Origin: Candidatus Eiseniibacteriota bacterium
GTDB lineage: Bacteria; Joyebacterota; Joyebacteria; Joyebacterales; Joyebacteraceae
Direction: 5' to 3'
Assembly (NCBI GenBank): GCA_030610515.1
Contig: JAUWRQ010000134.1
Coordinates: forward strand, 1 to 5,056
Length of the DNA stretch: 5,056 nucleotides
Positions 1 through 5,056 of this stretch are shown here, one piece after another. Position 1 is the stretch's first letter. Every line of letters begins with the position of its first letter. The position numbers were made by a program, and so were the translations under genes. The notes beneath the pieces were generated by a model. That model was not told where the DNA came from and made no database searches. It saw only the letters and a program-made list of their open reading frames with translations.

Positions 1-3000
1 GCCAGACGCCCGACACCTCGTATCTCCCGGCCGACAGCAGTATCGCTCTCGAGAAGTGGGACAACTTCGCCGTGGACCCCGACATGCTGCAGACGTCGGT
101 CCCCGGCATCTTCGCCGGCGGCGACGCGGTGACGGGTCCGGCGACGGTCATCGAGGCGATAGCCGCGGGCAAGGAAGCCGCGATATCGATCGACAGGTAC
201 ATCCGCGGCGTCGACCTCAAGGAGGGAAGGAAGGTCGAGCGCGCGCCCGTGGAAGAGGTGGAGATCCCGCCGCACCTTCAGAAGGCGGAGAGACAGGAGA
301 TGGCGTTCGCTCCTGTGAAGGAGCGTACCTCGAGCTTCGCTGAGGTCGCGCTCGGGCTCACCGAGGAGCAGGTGATCGCGGAGGCGGCGCGTTGCTTTAA
401 CTGCGGGGGCTGCTGCGAGTGCGGGGAATGCGAGAAGGTCTGCGAGCCCGAAGCGATCGTCCACGACATGGAGGACGAGATCATCGAGGAGGACATCGGG
501 GCGATCATCGTGGCCACCGGGTTCGACTTCTACGATCCGCAGGAGGCGAGCGAGTACGGCTTCAAGAGGTTCAGGAACGTCATAACGAGCCTTCAGCTTG
601 AGAGACTTCTCTCCGCGAGCGGCCCCACGAGGGGCATCCTGACCACGCTTACCGACGACGAGCCGCCCGAGCGCGTGGCCTTCATCCAGTGCGTGGGCTC
701 GAGGTCGGTCAAGCGCGGCATCCTCTACTGCAGCCGTATCTGCTGCATGAACGCGGTGAAGGACGCTCTCCTGATCGAGGAGCTCTTCCCCGAGTCGGAG
801 CAGCTCATCTTCAACATCGACATGCGCGCGTTCGGGAAGGGCTTCGAGGCCTTCTTCGAGCGTTCGCACGGGATCTCGAAGCTCAGGTACGTCAAGGGGA
901 AGCCGTCGAAGGTCACCGAGGACGGCGAGACGGGCGAGCTCATTCTCCACTACGAGGACAGCGAGACAGCGAAGATCGAACGGAAGAAGGTCGACATGGT
1001 CGTTCTCTCCTCGGCTCTCGTTCCCTCGAAGGGAACGGCGGGGCTGGCCGAGGTCCTAGGCATCGAGGTCGACGGCGACGGGTTCCTGAAAAGCAGGGAC
1101 GCGTCGGCATACCCTCTCGAGTCTACCAGAGAGGGCGTGTATGTCGCGGGTGGCGCCATCGGCCCGAAGGACATCACCGACGCCGTCGCGGAAGCGTCCG
1201 GGGCGTCGGCCCTCGCCGCCGGCCACATGCTCGACAACAGGGTCGAGCCGGTGCATGAGGAGATCGAGCCGATCGACGTCTCCGGAGAGCCCAGGATCGG
1301 CGTGTTCGTGTGCCACTGCGGCATCAACATCGCGGGCGTCCTGGACGTTGCGAAGCTGACTGAGTACGCGAGGATACTGCCGAACGTCGCGTTCGCGGAG
1401 CACGTACTCTTCGCCTGCGCCGAGAGCACGCAGCGCCAGATTCAGGACCGCATCGCCGAACATGCCCTGAACCGGGTCGTGGTCGCGGCGTGCACGCCGC
1501 GGACGCACGAGCCGGTGTTCAGGGAGACGTGCGCGAGGGTCGGCCTCAATCCATACCTCGTCGAGATGGTCAACATCCGCGACCAGTGTTCGTGGGTACA
1601 CCACGACCAGCCGGTCGAGGCGACCGAGAAGGCACGTGACCTCATTCGCATGGCGACGGCGAGGTCGAGACTCCTCTCGCCGCTCGCCGAACGCGAGTTC
1701 GGCGTGGGTCACGAGGTTCTCGTCGTTGGGGGAGGCATAGCCGGCATACAGGCGGCCATCGACCTCTCCAAGCGTGGCTTCGAGGTCCACCTGGCCGAGC
1801 AACACGATCGCCTCGGCGGTCGCGTTCTGGACCTCGCGAGCATCTACCCCAGCGGGCACTCCGGCAAGTGGCTCATCGACGAGAAGGTCCGCGAGCTCGA
1901 AGAGCGCGGCGTCGACGTGAGGACCGGCGTCACGCTGACCGAGGTCAGCGGCTTCGTCGGCAATTTCGAGGCGGTGCTCTCGCCGCCCGACGGCCGGGAC
2001 GGCAGCGCTGAGACGCTCGATGTCGGAGCGATCGTCATAGCCAGCGGCGCGGACGTCTACACGCCCGACGGGGAGTTCGCCTTCGGGGAAGTCCCGAACG
2101 TCATAGGCAATACGGAATTCGAGAGCGTGCTGGGAGCCGACAGCCCGAAGTTCCACGGGAAGCCCGTCCAGGACGTCGTCTACGTGCAGTGCGTGGGCTC
2201 TCGAGGGCCCAAGGGGAGCCCGGAGTGCTCGAGGTACTGTTGCCAGGCGGCGATACGCCAGGCAATCCAGCTGCGCGAGAAGGGCATAAACGTCGTCATC
2301 CTTCACAGGGACGTCCGCGTCTACAGCAGGGGCGGCGAGGAGATGTACCGGAAGGCGCGCGAGATGGGCGTCACCTTCTTCCGGTACGATCCGGACGATC
2401 CCCCGACGGTCGGGTCGGTCGGCGACAGGGCACGAGTCGTGCTCAAGTACAAGCCTCACGGGATCGACATCGCGCTCCCCGCGGACGTTGTCGTGCTGTC
2501 GCTCGGGATGGTGGCGAGGGCCGAGACGGCGGGCCTCGTGGACCTTCTGAAGGTGCCAGTCGGAAGCGACGGTTTCCTACTGGAGCGTCATCCTAAGTTC
2601 GGTCCCGTAGAGACGAACACGGAGGGAATCTTCCTGTGCGGATGCGCGCAGGCCCCCAAGGACATTGGGGACTCGATCGCGCAGTCGTCTGCCGTCGCTT
2701 CGAAGGTCGGGGCACTCCTGGCCCGCGACACGATCGCTGTCGAACCCGTGACGGCGGTCGTCGCCGACCGGCTGTGCCGCTCGTGCGGGCAATGCGTCGA
2801 GGTCTGCGAGTTCCACGCGATAGAGATCGAGGAGCTTCCGGACGGACGCCGCGCCGCCGTGGTGAACGAGGCGCTGTGCAAGGGCTGCGGCACGTGCGCC
2901 GTCGTCTGCCCCAACGGGGCCATCTCGATACGGCACTTCACCAGTGAGATGATCGAGTCGATGATTGAAGCCTACCTCGCGCCATCCGAGAAGTACGGCT

Positions 3001-3041
3001 CGGAGGCGTGGCCGGAGGAAGAGCTTGCCGAGCAGGAGTAA
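1..3041 (+). CDS. hdrA: HdrA-like/GltD fusion flavoprotein (HdrL-like), 5'-partial
   Basis: Large cytoplasmic iron-sulfur flavoprotein, open from the left edge (first whole codon at base 3) to TAA at 3039-3041; 1012 residues are in view. Numbering from base 3: residues 1-65 are the end of a GltD/NfnB-like NAD(P)H-FAD module (GIFAGGDAV at 35-43). Residues 131-147 carry seven cysteines (131, 134, 137, 138, 140, 143, 147). Residues 160-410 are the C-terminal half of an HdrA module with QCVGSR and YCSRICC (C230, C243, C247, C248), a pattern that binds a [4Fe-4S] cluster in HdrA. A second HdrA module starts at about 432 with VCHCGINIAG, followed by the FAD motif GGGIAG (576-581) and C730, C742, C746, C747. 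Two ferredoxin motifs close the protein (C925-C935 and C959-C969). The second module lacks the redox-cysteine motif and inserted ferredoxin expected after the FAD fold. HdrA bifurcates electrons via FAD; an NAD(P)H link is inferred from the GltD part. A GTG at 72 is internal and not the start. The family is sure; the exact role is not. Confidence 0.93.
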   Translation, partial: QTPDTSYLPADSSIALEKWDNFAVDPDMLQTSVPGIFAGGDAVTGPATVIEAIAAGKEAAISIDRYIRGVDLKEGRKVERAPVEEVEIPPHLQKAERQEMAFAPVKERTSSFAEVALGLTEEQVIAEAARCFNCGGCCECGECEKVCEPEAIVHDMEDEIIEEDIGAIIVATGFDFYDPQEASEYGFKRFRNVITSLQLERLLSASGPTRGILTTLTDDEPPERVAFIQCVGSRSVKRGILYCSRICCMNAVKDALLIEELFPESEQLIFNIDMRAFGKGFEAFFERSHGISKLRYVKGKPSKVTEDGETGELILHYEDSETAKIERKKVDMVVLSSALVPSKGTAGLAEVLGIEVDGDGFLKSRDASAYPLESTREGVYVAGGAIGPKDITDAVAEASGASALAAGHMLDNRVEPVHEEIEPIDVSGEPRIGVFVCHCGINIAGVLDVAKLTEYARILPNVAFAEHVLFACAESTQRQIQDRIAEHALNRVVVAACTPRTHEPVFRETCARVGLNPYLVEMVNIRDQCSWVHHDQPVEATEKARDLIRMATARSRLLSPLAEREFGVGHEVLVVGGGIAGIQAAIDLSKRGFEVHLAEQHDRLGGRVLDLASIYPSGHSGKWLIDEKVRELEERGVDVRTGVTLTEVSGFVGNFEAVLSPPDGRDGSAETLDVGAIVIASGADVYTPDGEFAFGEVPNVIGNTEFESVLGADSPKFHGKPVQDVVYVQCVGSRGPKGSPECSRYCCQAAIRQAIQLREKGINVVILHRDVRVYSRGGEEMYRKAREMGVTFFRYDPDDPPTVGSVGDRARVVLKYKPHGIDIALPADVVVLSLGMVARAETAGLVDLLKVPVGSDGFLLERHPKFGPVETNTEGIFLCGCAQAPKDIGDSIAQSSAVASKVGALLARDTIAVEPVTAVVADRLCRSCGQCVEVCEFHAIEIEELPDGRRAAVVNEALCKGCGTCAVVCPNGAISIRHFTSEMIESMIEAYLAPSEKYGSEAWPEEELAEQE
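3014..3018 (+). promoter_or_regulatory. Ribosome binding site for the MvhD gene (decides a TTG start)
   Basis: A perfect GGAGG lies six bases before TTG at 3025, inside the last codons of the upstream HdrA-like gene. It makes 3025 the best start. The other in-frame TTG, at 2965, has no comparable Shine-Dalgarno and would add 20 residues overlapping the upstream gene by 77 bases. The placement suggests translational coupling. Confidence 0.75.
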
Positions 3042-3795
3042 GAAGACCGCGCCGAAGAAGGCTCCGAAGGCGTCCGCCAAGCCGGCGAAGAAGGCGGTGA
3101 AGAAGACCGACGCCGGCGCTCCCGAGAAGAGACTTGTCTGGCAGAAGGAGCAGGAGGGCGCCGCCGCCCGGGAGGTCGCGCGCGAGGGCGACGGGGGCTT
3201 CGAGCCCAGGATCATCGCGTTCGCGTGCAACTGGTGCAGCTACCCGGCGGCGGACGCGGCGGGCATCGGCAAGATGCAGTACCCGCCCAACGCGCGGATC
3301 ATCCGCGTGATGTGCGCGGGCCGCATCCACCCCGCGTTCGTTCTCAGGGCGCTGGAGCTGGGTGCGGACGGCGTGCTCGTATCCGGTTGCCACGATGCGG
3401 ACTGCCACTATCTGTTCGGCGCGAAGCGCGCGGGAGAGCAGTTCGAGAAGACGGCCGAGCTCGTCAGGATGCTCGGACTCGAGAAGGAACGCGTCCGGTT
3501 CGAGCAGATATCCGCGGCCGAGGCGCCCATGAGAAAGGCCCTGCCGAGCTCCGTTCCGGAGCGCTTCGTCGATCTCAATCTGGACGCCTTCGAGCGTGGG
3601 TACGAGCGCGGGCTGGCGGCGCTGGGAAAGCTGCCTGCGGGCGGTGAGGCCGCGGCGAGGAAGAAGGCTGCACCGAGGAAGGCAGCGGTGAAGAAGGCTG
3701 CGAAGAAGAAGACTGCGAAGAAGAAGGCAGCGCCGAAGAAGAAGGCAGCCTCGAAGAAGGCCACGACGCGCAGAAAGCGCGCGACTAAGAAGTAG
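3025..3795 (+). CDS. mvhD: MvhD-type iron-sulfur protein with lysine-rich N- and C-terminal tails
   Basis: Homologue of the delta subunit of methyl-viologen-reducing hydrogenase (MvhD/FlpD family), which in Hdr-Mvh complexes relays electrons to HdrA through a [2Fe-2S] cluster. With the TTG start at 3025 the protein has 256 residues. The core spans about residues 60-200: FACNWCSY (C68, C71), the stretch QYPPNARIIRVMCAGR (C97), and GCHDADCHY (C122, C127). The last motif is usually GCHPGDCHY as I recall it, so the two middle residues differ. Residues 6-28 (10 Lys) and 211-256 (19 Lys and 5 Arg of 46) are histone H1-like Lys/Ala/Pro tails, not part of the usual MvhD. Both CNWC positions are TGC, so this protein is not the selenoprotein. 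It overlaps the upstream HdrA-like gene by 17 bases and lies 51 bases before the next, which fits an HdrA partner. No hydrogenase genes are in view, so the donor is unknown. Confidence 0.92.
   Translation: MPSRSKKTAPKKAPKASAKPAKKAVKKTDAGAPEKRLVWQKEQEGAAAREVAREGDGGFEPRIIAFACNWCSYPAADAAGIGKMQYPPNARIIRVMCAGRIHPAFVLRALELGADGVLVSGCHDADCHYLFGAKRAGEQFEKTAELVRMLGLEKERVRFEQISAAEAPMRKALPSSVPERFVDLNLDAFERGYERGLAALGKLPAGGEAAARKKAAPRKAAVKKAAKKKTAKKKAAPKKKAASKKATTRRKRATKK
3040..3108 (+). repeat. Lysine/alanine/proline-rich N-terminal extension of MvhD
   Basis: Residues 6-28 of the MvhD protein contain 10 lysines, the rest being almost only Ala, Pro, Ser, Thr and Val (for example KKTAPKKAPK). It is low complexity, probably disordered and strongly basic. 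It is separated from the folded core by about 30 mixed-charge residues. Confidence 0.8.
3655..3792 (+). repeat. Histone H1-like Lys/Ala repeat tail of MvhD
   Basis: This codes for the last 46 residues of MvhD, 24 of them Lys or Arg, in KKAA/KKKTA/KKKAAP-like units. At DNA level the 11-mer AAGAAGGCWGC occurs four times (3661, 3691, 3721, 3739), so the tract is an imprecise tandem repeat likely to vary in length between strains. Such tails occur in bacterial H1-like and other nucleoid or polyanion-binding proteins. A role on an MvhD protein is unknown to me. Confidence 0.85.
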
Positions 3796-3799
3796 CGCG

Positions 3800-3816
3800 G
3801 GCCGCATGAGGCGGCC
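3800..3816 (+). other. Short intergenic hairpin after mvhD
   Basis: GGCCGC (3800-3805) and GCGGCC (3811-3816) can form a 6-bp stem with a 5-base loop, five bases after the mvhD stop. No run of T follows, so it is not a convincing intrinsic terminator. It may affect mRNA stability or be a chance of high GC. Confidence 0.3.
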
Positions 3817-3836
3817 GTCTCACCTCTGGGGTATGG

Positions 3837-3841
3837 GGAGG
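3837..3841 (+). promoter_or_regulatory. Ribosome binding site of the Sec-containing HdrA-like gene
   Basis: GGAGG lies five bases before ATG at 3847. It supports that start although the frame it opens meets a TGA after only 55 codons, which argues that this short-looking frame is really translated. Confidence 0.75.
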
Positions 3842-3846
3842 GCTGG

Positions 3847-5056
3847 ATGGAGAAGGGCGTGCTCGTGATTGGGGGCGGCATCGCAGGCATACAGGCCGCG
3901 CTCGATCTCGCGAATGCGCAGTTCAAGGTCTACCTGGTCGAGCGGGCTCCTTCAGTAGGCGGGAAGATGGCCCAGCTTGACAAGACCTTCCCGAGCATGG
4001 ACTGCGCCATCTGAATACTCGGTCCTAAGATGATGGATGTCGGTCGGCATCCTAACATAACACTCTGGACCAATAGCGAGGTTGTCAAGGTCGATGGAGA
4101 GGCCGGCGACTTCAAGGTCGACGTTCTGCGACAGGCGCGCTACGTCGACTTCGAGAAGTGCAACGGCTGTGGCGACTGCTCGCCCGCTTGTCCCGTGGGG
4201 CTGTGCAGCGAGTTCGACGTGGGGCTCGTGGATCGGTCCGCCATCTACAGACCGTTTCCCCAGGCCGTACCGAACAAGTTCGTCATCGACAAGCGGGGTG
4301 TCTCCCCGTGCAAGTTCGCGTGCCCTGCCGACGTGAACGCCCAGGGATATGTGGCGCTGGCGTCGCAGGGGAAGTTCGAAGAGGCGCTCGCCCTGGAGCG
4401 CGAGGAGAACCCGTTCCCGTCGGTGTGCGGCAGGGTCTGCACTCATCCCTGCGAGGGGGAGTGCAAGAGGGGGGACTTCGACGTTCCGGTCGCGATACGG
4501 AGCATCAAGCGGTTCCTGGCCGATTGCGAGGAGGAGCCGCCCAAGCCCGAGTTGCCGAAGGCCAAGAAGCAGAAGGTCGCGATCGTCGGCAGCGGACCCT
4601 CGGGGCTCGCCTGTGCGCACCGACTCGGCAAGCTGGGCTACGCCTCGACCGTGTTCGAAGCGCTGCCGGTGGCGGGTGGAATGCTGGCGGCCGGCATCCC
4701 GGAGTTCAGGCTCCCCAGGGAAGGCCTCCGGCGGGACATCGACTACATCAAGAGCTGGCGGGTTACGATCAAGACGGACCACAAGGTCGACGACCTCGAG
4801 AAGCTGCTCAAGGAAGGCTACAGCGCGGTCTACGTCGCCACCGGGGCGTGGCGTGAGAGGAAGCTCAACGTTGAGGGCGAGGACCTCGAGGGCGTGTACT
4901 ACGGGGTCGACTTCCTGTCCAAGGTCAACCTGGGTGAGAAGGTGGAGGTCGGGGAGAGGGTAGCAGTCATCGGCGGTGGGAACTCGGCGATCGACGCCGC
5001 GCGAACAGCGGTGAGGTCCGGCGGGAAAGAAGTGACCATCGTCTACCGGAGGTCAC
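3847..5056 (+). CDS. hdrA: Selenocysteine-containing HdrA-GltD fusion (HdrL-like), 3'-partial, TGA recoded at codon 56
   Basis: Starts at ATG 3847 and stays open to the window edge (403 codons) apart from one TGA at codon 56, read here as selenocysteine. The domains in order are as follows. First comes an HdrA FAD fold with GGGIAG (9-14) and GGKMAQLDKTFP (38-49). Next is the redox motif DCAIU (52-56) followed by ILGPKM; in most HdrA proteins position 56 is Cys. A ferredoxin motif follows with C105, C108, C111 and C115. A GltD/NfnB-like module then begins at about 155, with cysteines 155, 159, 194, 198, 202 and 206 in NPFPSVCGRVCTHPCEGEC and neighbouring sequence, expected to bind [4Fe-4S] clusters. 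A flavin/nucleotide fold GSGPSG (248-253) with GGMLAAGIPEFRLP and a second nucleotide fold IGGGNSAIDAA (375-385), likely for NAD(P)H, end the visible part. The same domains end gene 1, so the full protein is probably about 1,400-1,500 residues. It is likely a flavin-based electron-transfer subunit working with MvhD; the direction of electron flow is unknown. The alternative, a pseudogene, is unlikely because the rest of the frame is intact and conserved. Confidence 0.9.
4012..4014 (+). other. In-frame TGA read as selenocysteine
   Basis: Codon 56 of the second HdrA-like gene. It replaces the second cysteine of the HdrA CxxC motif (here C53-A-I-U56). It is the only TGA in roughly 1,670 codons of the three frames, Trp is always TGG, and the other two genes end in TAA and TAG. 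The frame, codon use and family motifs continue without change on both sides. Selenocysteine at this HdrA position is known from methanogens and some sulfate-reducing bacteria. Confidence 0.9.
4030..4058 (+). promoter_or_regulatory. Putative bacterial SECIS element
   Basis: The core is a perfect 7-bp stem, GGATGTC (4035-4041) with GGCATCC (4046-4052), including one U-G pair, closed by the loop GGTC (4042-4045). An outer ATG/CAT pairing (4030-4032 with 4056-4058) adds three pairs beyond a small internal loop. The loop begins 27 bases after the TGA, within the spacing I recall for bacterial SECIS elements. The loop GGUC is the same as in the Escherichia coli fdhF SECIS, where the second G and the U contact SelB. 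The assignment is by eye, without folding energy. Confidence 0.75.

Follow-up and report, generated by a model that had tools for sequence, protein, structure and literature searches.

The HdrA-GltD locus

The stretch of DNA analysed here, referred to as the window, is the entire contig JAUWRQ010000134.1 (G000:C116; 5056 bases) of a 57%-complete bin assigned to Candidatus Eiseniibacteriota, and it carries an MvhD/FlpD-type gene together with separate parts of one gene for a large HdrA-type protein, which encloses a GltD/NfnL-like module and is predicted to contain selenocysteine (Sec) at an in-frame TGA. The reading frame that opens with ATG 3847 on the forward strand runs to the end of the window, its sole stop being this TGA (codon 56, 4012-4014). 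The original prediction, made from the letters of this DNA alone, had described such a frame, continuing after the TGA with HdrA and GltD motifs, and the Pfam and NCBIfam domains, the structure alignment and the relatives agree with it. Left out at that stage were the C-terminal part of the same protein, at positions 3-3041, and the protein's nature as a double HdrA. The C-terminal part is assigned to the same protein because the window overlaps with a contig of another bin (locus L063, contig G016:C191), positions 1-1669 matching L063 2244-3912 at 99.7% and positions 3198-5056 matching L063 169-2012 at 98.6%. The gene is cut by both window edges, comparison with L063 showing 231 of its bases to be missing, and the composite of the overlapping contigs (window plus L063) encodes 1493 residues.

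In this composite, HdrA sequence with Sec56 (residues 1-148) is followed by the GltD insert (149-620), the remainder of the first HdrA half (621-905), an N-terminal-type Fe-S domain (910-1035), a second TrxR domain (about 1045-1400) and two 4Fe-4S motifs. The chain combines two TrxR domains, a trait of type II HdrA, with an insert placed between Cys105-115 and Cys612-628, within the inserted ferredoxin domain, a trait of type III HdrA, and it joins HdrA and GltD parts as HdrL does. Of the NAD(P)H-type HdrA fusion proposed originally, the large fusion stands and the end-to-end layout does not, GltD being an insertion within the ferredoxin domain of HdrA. By Pfam and NCBIfam, the HdrA-type domains come first and those of GltD type (PF14691, PF07992; NF009410) lie at residues 147-403; for HdrA and GltD alike, the window fragments score below the cut-offs that NCBIfam sets for whole proteins. 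Residues 153-403 are GltD/NfnL-like, and this part holds 4Fe-4S, FAD and NAD(P) motifs up to the contig end that cuts it. The HdrA-like residues 1-149 and 621-1492 are 79% and 78% identical to the relative L064. The second HdrA half, compared by eye with the Methanothermococcus HdrA (structure 5odc), has Arg in place of K409, no Cys197 and no inserted ferredoxin. An AlphaFold model of residues 1-1036 (mean predicted local distance difference test score, pLDDT, 89.5; predicted template modelling score, pTM, 0.84) has its best fold matches among NfnABC/Stn and HdrA chains, and may be taken as support for the folds only. The features are collected in Table 1. An imperfect inverted repeat (84% over 64 columns) also lies at window positions 1465-1524, where the N-terminal-type domain of HdrA is encoded.

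Table 1. Features of the window (all on the forward strand), with residue numbers of the composite protein
Feature	Position	Residues	Basis or remark
HdrA half 1, N-terminal part: FAD-binding TrxR-like domain and first half of inserted ferredoxin	3847..4290 (+)	1-148	5odc alignment
Predicted selenocysteine at in-frame TGA	4012..4014 (+)	56	Cys197 column of 5odc
Putative hairpin of selenocysteine insertion sequence (SECIS) type	4035..4052 (+)		7-bp stem, GGUC loop 4042-4045; stem starts 20 nt after TGA
First part of inserted GltD/NfnL-like module	4291..5055 (+)	149-403	PF14691, PF07992; 5jca, 9bov, 8oh5
End of GltD module	3..419 (+)	482-620	overlap with L063; precedes the N-terminal part in the contig
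HdrA half 1, remainder	420..1274 (+)	621-905	E681, K734, Cys711/724/728/729
HdrA N-terminal-type Fe-S domain opening half 2	1287..1664 (+)	910-1035	5odc 3-128
HdrA half 2, with the second TrxR-like domain and a C-terminal pair of 4Fe-4S motifs	1692..3041 (+)		stop 3039-3041
MvhD/FlpD-type gene	3025..3795 (+)		PF02662
FlpD repeat	3198..3527 (+)		L206 (left) and L063 (right) appear joined here

The in-frame TGA

The TGA stands in the context DCAI-U-ILGPKM, and residue 56 aligns with Cys197 of the 5odc HdrA, the second Cys of its DCSIC motif (query residue 5 aligned to chain residue 146), as had been proposed from the motif alone. Among the best 120 proteins of the database search, 87 have Cys in this column. 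Conservation extends to the 55 residues encoded 5' of the TGA, residues 1-150 being 74-78% identical in seven same-family contigs that have one TGA, and in the relatives' loci inspected the TGA falls within the same motif. The motif GGGIAG, which binds flavin adenine dinucleotide (FAD), is likewise encoded upstream of it. Because the upstream residues are conserved and the downstream hairpin is both conserved and covarying, the TGA is not a chance occurrence. A sequencing error is disfavoured, since L063, which comes from another bin, has the same TGA, as do 136 distinct Sec stretches. The in-frame TGA within an HdrA/GltD frame is confirmed as an observation; that it is read as selenocysteine, the central point of the original prediction, is supported as a prediction by its conserved place on the Cys197 column, the covarying hairpin and the selenocysteine machinery in the bin.

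The putative hairpin draws its support from comparison across species, which was relied on because single-sequence folding was equivocal. At least 119 Sec-HdrA stretches in named genomes matched a pattern that ends before the hairpin. All seven pairs of the stem are present in 115 of the 136 distinct Sec stretches and in none of eight Cys stretches, and the loop reads GGTC in 119 of the 136. Pair 29-36 covaries, being CG in 61, TA in 44, TG in 20 and unpaired in 10 of the 135 stretches without N, a covariation reached by none of 10,000 shuffles (which ignore relatedness). Thinned to 39 representatives that differ by more than 12 bases, the set has all seven pairs in 25, and pair 29-36 is CG in 16, TA in 11, TG in 5 and other in 7. 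When the helix was slid in frame to 13 other places, full pairing was reached in zero sequences. Third-position GC is 0.50 in the 20 codons after the TGA, against 0.87 for the whole, and no 20-codon stretch among the first 1036 codons is lower.

Selenocysteine machinery

Of the four genes selA, selB, selC and selD, for which a search of the same genome had been advised, three are represented in the bin: a tRNA-Sec scoring 71.7 bits and also called by ARAGORN, two SelA matches over the cut-off, and, on the contig of the tRNA-Sec, a SelD with the Sec-type motif SGUAAK. SelB, searched for with two models, is not over the cut-off in this bin, which is 57% complete, or in G016. Across the 20 family genomes, SelB is over the cut-off in 11 and SelB-wing_3 likewise in 11, and tRNA-Sec is over the cut-off in all 20, with at least 68 bits in 19 of them and 50.6 in the exception, G017; the tRNA-Sec model also reaches the cut-off in 5 of 14 control genomes, so that a pass alone says little. 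Should the contig be misbinned, the Sec genes of G016 would count instead, where tRNA-Sec was seen and SelB was not found. The two SelA matches lie on contigs C222 and C253 of the bin, one of which may be a paralogue or on a foreign contig.

Database entries cut behind the selenocysteine site

A protein search with a 1036-residue piece (L063:803-3910) scored 7996 proteins, of which the best 120 were listed and placed by an alignment of our own. Besides the hits that have Cys in place of Sec56, there are 32 whose sequence opens with Met62 or shortly behind it, and one (P0039) is partial. Of the 32, 27 were assigned by a script and five (P0008, P0026, P0042, P0059, P0110) by their first letters, the script having aligned the wrong domain. 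The best example is P0001, whose 1432 residues match this protein from Met62 onwards at 99%, and the expectation that gene finders mis-call the gene is borne out by it; its source field carries the mark given to proteins encoded by the window itself. The upstream TGA has been observed for this gene and for P0008 (judged identical to L222) only; for the other hits starting at Met62 we infer Sec. Named hits that start behind the Sec site include WOR-3, and named hits with Cys include Methanomassiliicoccales, Thermoplasmata, Aerophobetes and Thermodesulfobacteriota. It is likely that the loss from catalogues is systematic, 32 of the 120 best hits being without the flavin-binding start of the protein.

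The same entries would fit a different account, in which translation really ends at the TGA, the 55 codons before it are dead or encode a short peptide, and ATG 4030 opens a gene of its own: the first residue of P0001, and of 31 other hits, is Met62 or one next to it, and SelB was not found in the bin's own assembly. This is very improbable, since residues 1-150 are as conserved as the remainder, the GGGIAG motif lies upstream of the TGA, and the hairpin and Sec genes are present; a plain stop-codon reading is further disfavoured by the recurrence of the TGA on L063 and in the 136 distinct Sec stretches.

Structure and binning of the contig

The order of the parts in the window, with the C-terminal part and MvhD gene preceding the N-terminal part, probably arose when the assembler closed a loop over the FlpD repeat. 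A further contig of the other bin, L206 (G016:C394), matches window positions 1397-3527 at 98.3% and then continues into mvhD with its usual end and hdrCB, window positions from 3198 on correspond to L063, and between 3198 and 3527 the letters of the window alternate between L206 and L063 as a mosaic. The contig is a single locus in circularly permuted order, closed at the FlpD repeat of 330 bp. It is a good deal less probable that the order is real, by tandem duplication or as an excised circle of about 5.3 kb from recombination at the FlpD repeat: the joint inside the repeat with its mosaic between both parents, and the occurrence of the MvhD-KorG-tail joint in G016:C191 as well, would agree with this, but an assembler walking through the repeat would produce an identical contig, the loop lacks 231 bp and the gene is cut at both edges. 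As a separate observation, the MvhD gene, whose product ends in a KorG-like tail, has a likely recombination joint near 3528-3531, which is also present in L063.

Contigs of G016, which has another genus code, share 98.3-99.7% identity with the window, whereas for the hdr locus that the bin itself has (C236) identity reaches no more than 74% with G016:C394 and 79% with the genus mate G001. Because of this difference the contig may be misbinned; misbinning or a recent transfer is probable.

Relatives and neighbouring genes

In the relatives L064-L068 this gene recurs with its TGA, at 76-79% identity before the insert and 69-78% after it, and without residues 150-620, that is, without the GltD insert. 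An intact homologue on one contig is provided by L222 of Candidatus Stahlbacteria (the same contig as L133), which over 1487 aligned columns is 57% identical and has the TGA at the same place, all seven stem pairs, a GGCA loop and mvhD as the next gene; the same genome holds a second, contig-cut copy (L223) with a korG-type gene upstream. The gene mvhD also follows hdrA in L206, and in the window it follows the C-terminal part at 3025. In G016:C394, mvhD and a fused hdrCB-type gene adjoin. Residues 170-208 and the Lys-rich tail of the window's MvhD/FlpD-type protein resemble the tail of a KorG-like protein encoded upstream of hdrA in relatives. Upstream of hdrA in L064, two of the three frames taken are of 2-oxoacid:ferredoxin oxidoreductase type (POR_N, POR), the middle frame matching no family, and downstream stand mvhD and then a fused hdrCB-type gene; this setting makes a link to 2-oxoacid oxidation plausible. 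Neither metV nor metF is among the window's three genes, and no search aimed at metV or metF was made.

The bin has a second Sec-HdrA gene, L071 (G000:C236), with TGA at 2620, behind mvhD and a fused hdrCB-type gene. Another combination of traits is seen in L142/L225 of Chloroflexota, a Sec HdrA with inserted GltD that is preceded by a domain of the N-terminal type and has only one TrxR domain. TGA is found in the same HdrA motif in eleven further records (L085, L094, L109, L113, L129, L150, L153, L163, L165, L173, L157), whose titles name Lokiarchaeia/Lokiarchaeota, Jordarchaeum and Bathyarchaeota.

Origin of the GltD insert

In the tree of the HdrA flanks, the window groups with L064 and L068, both of which are without GltD (Shimodaira-Hasegawa-like approximate likelihood ratio test, SH-aLRT, 100), and a single clade of the rows picked as Sec, seen or inferred, with GltD is rejected (approximately unbiased, AU, test, p 1.6e-5). 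In the tree of the GltD module, the window is sister to P0002, a protein with Cys in its HdrA (SH-aLRT 98), and a clade of the window with the GltD rows of WOR-3/Stahlbacteria is rejected (p 0.016). Because the two trees place the window differently, they suggest a separate gain of the GltD cassette by a Sec double HdrA; counts of changes cannot tell a gain of GltD from a loss. These are quick trees with 30 hand-picked database proteins of the 120, and the clades for the AU tests were named after the first trees had been viewed. The flank tree is without L073 and L074, and P0011, P0085, P0067 and P0105 were dropped from it after the first tree was viewed; it has two long branches (L187, L075), and L066 and L068 have an odd letter make-up. 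Among the 119 listed pattern loci, many of which are cut, at least two have GltD in frame with Sec, namely L133 and the Chloroflexota locus L142.

The absence of GltD from that place in the closest relatives could also be explained if the joint between HdrA and GltD were an assembly chimera. Such a chimera is rejected as extremely improbable, the same joint recurring in G016:C191, P0001, L222 of Stahlbacteria and many of the 120 best database proteins.

Proposed mechanism

The reading that we favour, with a probability of roughly 0.82, is that of a Sec-containing double HdrA with an inserted GltD module and self-paired halves, serving an NAD(P)H-linked complex for flavin-based bifurcation or confurcation, a type of energy coupling used by anaerobes. 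E681 and K734, which correspond to E356 and K409 of 5odc, and Cys711, 724, 728 and 729 are invariant in a 48-row alignment. These four Cys match the TrxR Cys quartet of 5odc, which we take to be residues 386, 399, 403 and 404. For the known systems this section draws on the accessible parts of the papers cited. There, E356 and K409 are given as marks of the bifurcating HdrA flavin (PMC9430772), Cys197 is a ligand of the N-terminal Fe-S cluster in the other HdrA of the pair, electrons on their way to the inserted ferredoxin pass through this cluster, and fused HdrAs are complementary in Cys197 and the N-terminal domain (PMC9012536). NfnB-like insertions are described for HdrA of ANME-1 (PMC9012536), and an inserted GltD has been proposed to block ferredoxin, letting NAD(P)H use that branch (PMC12054007).

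In the present protein, Sec56 belongs to half 1, which lacks an N-terminal domain, whereas half 2 has that domain and no counterpart of Cys197; this is the same complementarity in the opposite order to the fusions described. In the mechanism proposed, the UGA would be read by SelB with Sec-tRNA, and the two halves would pair as a self-contained HdrA dimer within one chain, half 1 providing the bifurcating FAD (E681, K734) and Sec56 and half 2 the Fe-S domain. Since the complementarity of the halves matches that described for fused HdrAs, Sec56 may help to ligate the cluster of half 2, which would stand on the branch leading to GltD, with the FAD on one side and the inserted ferredoxin on the other. 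GltD would replace free ferredoxin, so that NAD(P)H feeds or drains that branch, and MvhD and HdrCB would serve the other branches. Every step of this electron flow is inferred. With selenium on a predicted Fe-S ligand of the branch that carries the NAD(P)H module, what it contributes to electron coupling by flavins would become testable.

Several observations weigh against the favoured reading. Full stems are missing from 21 of the 136 Sec stretches, and the Cys control is small, at eight stretches. A search of the whole window against Rfam, with E up to 5, gave four weak matches below the gathering scores, none of them SECIS. Single-sequence folding gave z-scores of -2.74 for 4009-4072 and of -0.43 and -0.31 for two other stretches, and SelB, as noted, was not found in either bin. 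The NAD(P) motif is GGGNSA (GxGxxA) versus the GxGxxG given for archaeal type III HdrA in the part of the source available (PMC12054007), which bears on the choice between NADH and NADPH. Selenocysteine might also be read as predicted in a complex that simply transfers electrons to or from NAD(P)H and does not bifurcate; non-bifurcating HdrA homologues exist, according to the accessible text of PMC9430772, and half 2 has Arg for K409. We regard this as unlikely, though clearly worth weighing, as half 1 keeps both bifurcation-signature residues, invariant in the 48 rows.

A wider interpretation of the favoured reading is offered tentatively, as one that we would still bet against: in a one-chain enzyme, the selenolate of one half would, in this lineage, ligate the [4Fe-4S] cluster of the other and so tune the path that joins the flavin of HdrA to a second, Nfn-like one, forming a selenium-ligated wire between the two, and the HdrA ferredoxin domain would be a standard slot for GltD cassettes swapped between lineages. 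Neither Sec56 as a ligand between halves of one chain nor a cassette swap was met in the literature searched, which left most subscription papers outside.

Comparison with known systems

The kind of protein is already known, Sec-HdrA and GltD-fused HdrA (HdrL) both being in print; the comparisons below are with the accessible portions of the papers. A Sec-containing HdrL, a fusion of HdrA and glutamate synthase, was reported beside mvhD in Desulfobacterium autotrophicum HRM2 in 2009 and called unique to that organism (PMC2702500); database hits show that GltD-containing HdrA occurs in many organisms. As is predicted here, HdrL1 and HdrL3 are selenocysteine proteins; an NADH-binding site is described and mvhD follows, as it does in L206 and L222 (PMC2702500). 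HdrL1 lies beside dsr genes, however, whereas the relatives here have kor-type genes and hdrCB, and the comparison is one of descriptions.

The HdrA of Moorella thermoacetica (MetVF-HdrABC-MvhD) is close in architecture, being numbered to residue 1487, with the first TrxR domain split by ferredoxin and GltD and a second HdrA with a C-terminal ferredoxin, in the same domain order, and it oxidises NADH at 190 U/mg (PMC9430772). Unlike the protein predicted here, it apparently has Cys, to judge from the complementarity of Cys197 and the N-terminal domain (PMC9012536), and its neighbours are MetVF; one Sec-HdrA is listed for M. thermoacetica (PMC1794560). An inserted GltD is shared with type III HdrA and two TrxR domains with type II, but in the archaeal survey, as far as its available text goes, the two types are separate and the longest HdrA has 1182 residues (PMC12054007), whereas here they are combined, with predicted Sec. 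The Sec-HdrA of bacteria and methanogens is likewise encoded with UGA, and the bacterial operons fuse hdrA-hdrA or hdrA_N-unknown-hdrA_C; the 'unknown' insert is not named GltD in the accessible text, and the order there is hdrA-frhD-frhG-frhA (PMC1794560).

Among structures, the 5odc HdrA shares the domain sequence, the cluster cysteines, E356, K409 and the Cys197 column, but is a single HdrA of 654 residues with Cys197 and no GltD. The GltD-type module is 46%, 42% and 37% identical (fold search) to that of the NfnABC/Stn transhydrogenases 9bov, 9n5u and 8oh5, in which it stands beside other domains and not inside an HdrA. What the present locus would add to the known Sec-HdrL is the covarying hairpin of SECIS type, predicted from sequence comparison, a model of a self-dimer in which Sec56 ligates the Fe-S cluster of half 2, and what appears to be a separate gain of the GltD cassette.
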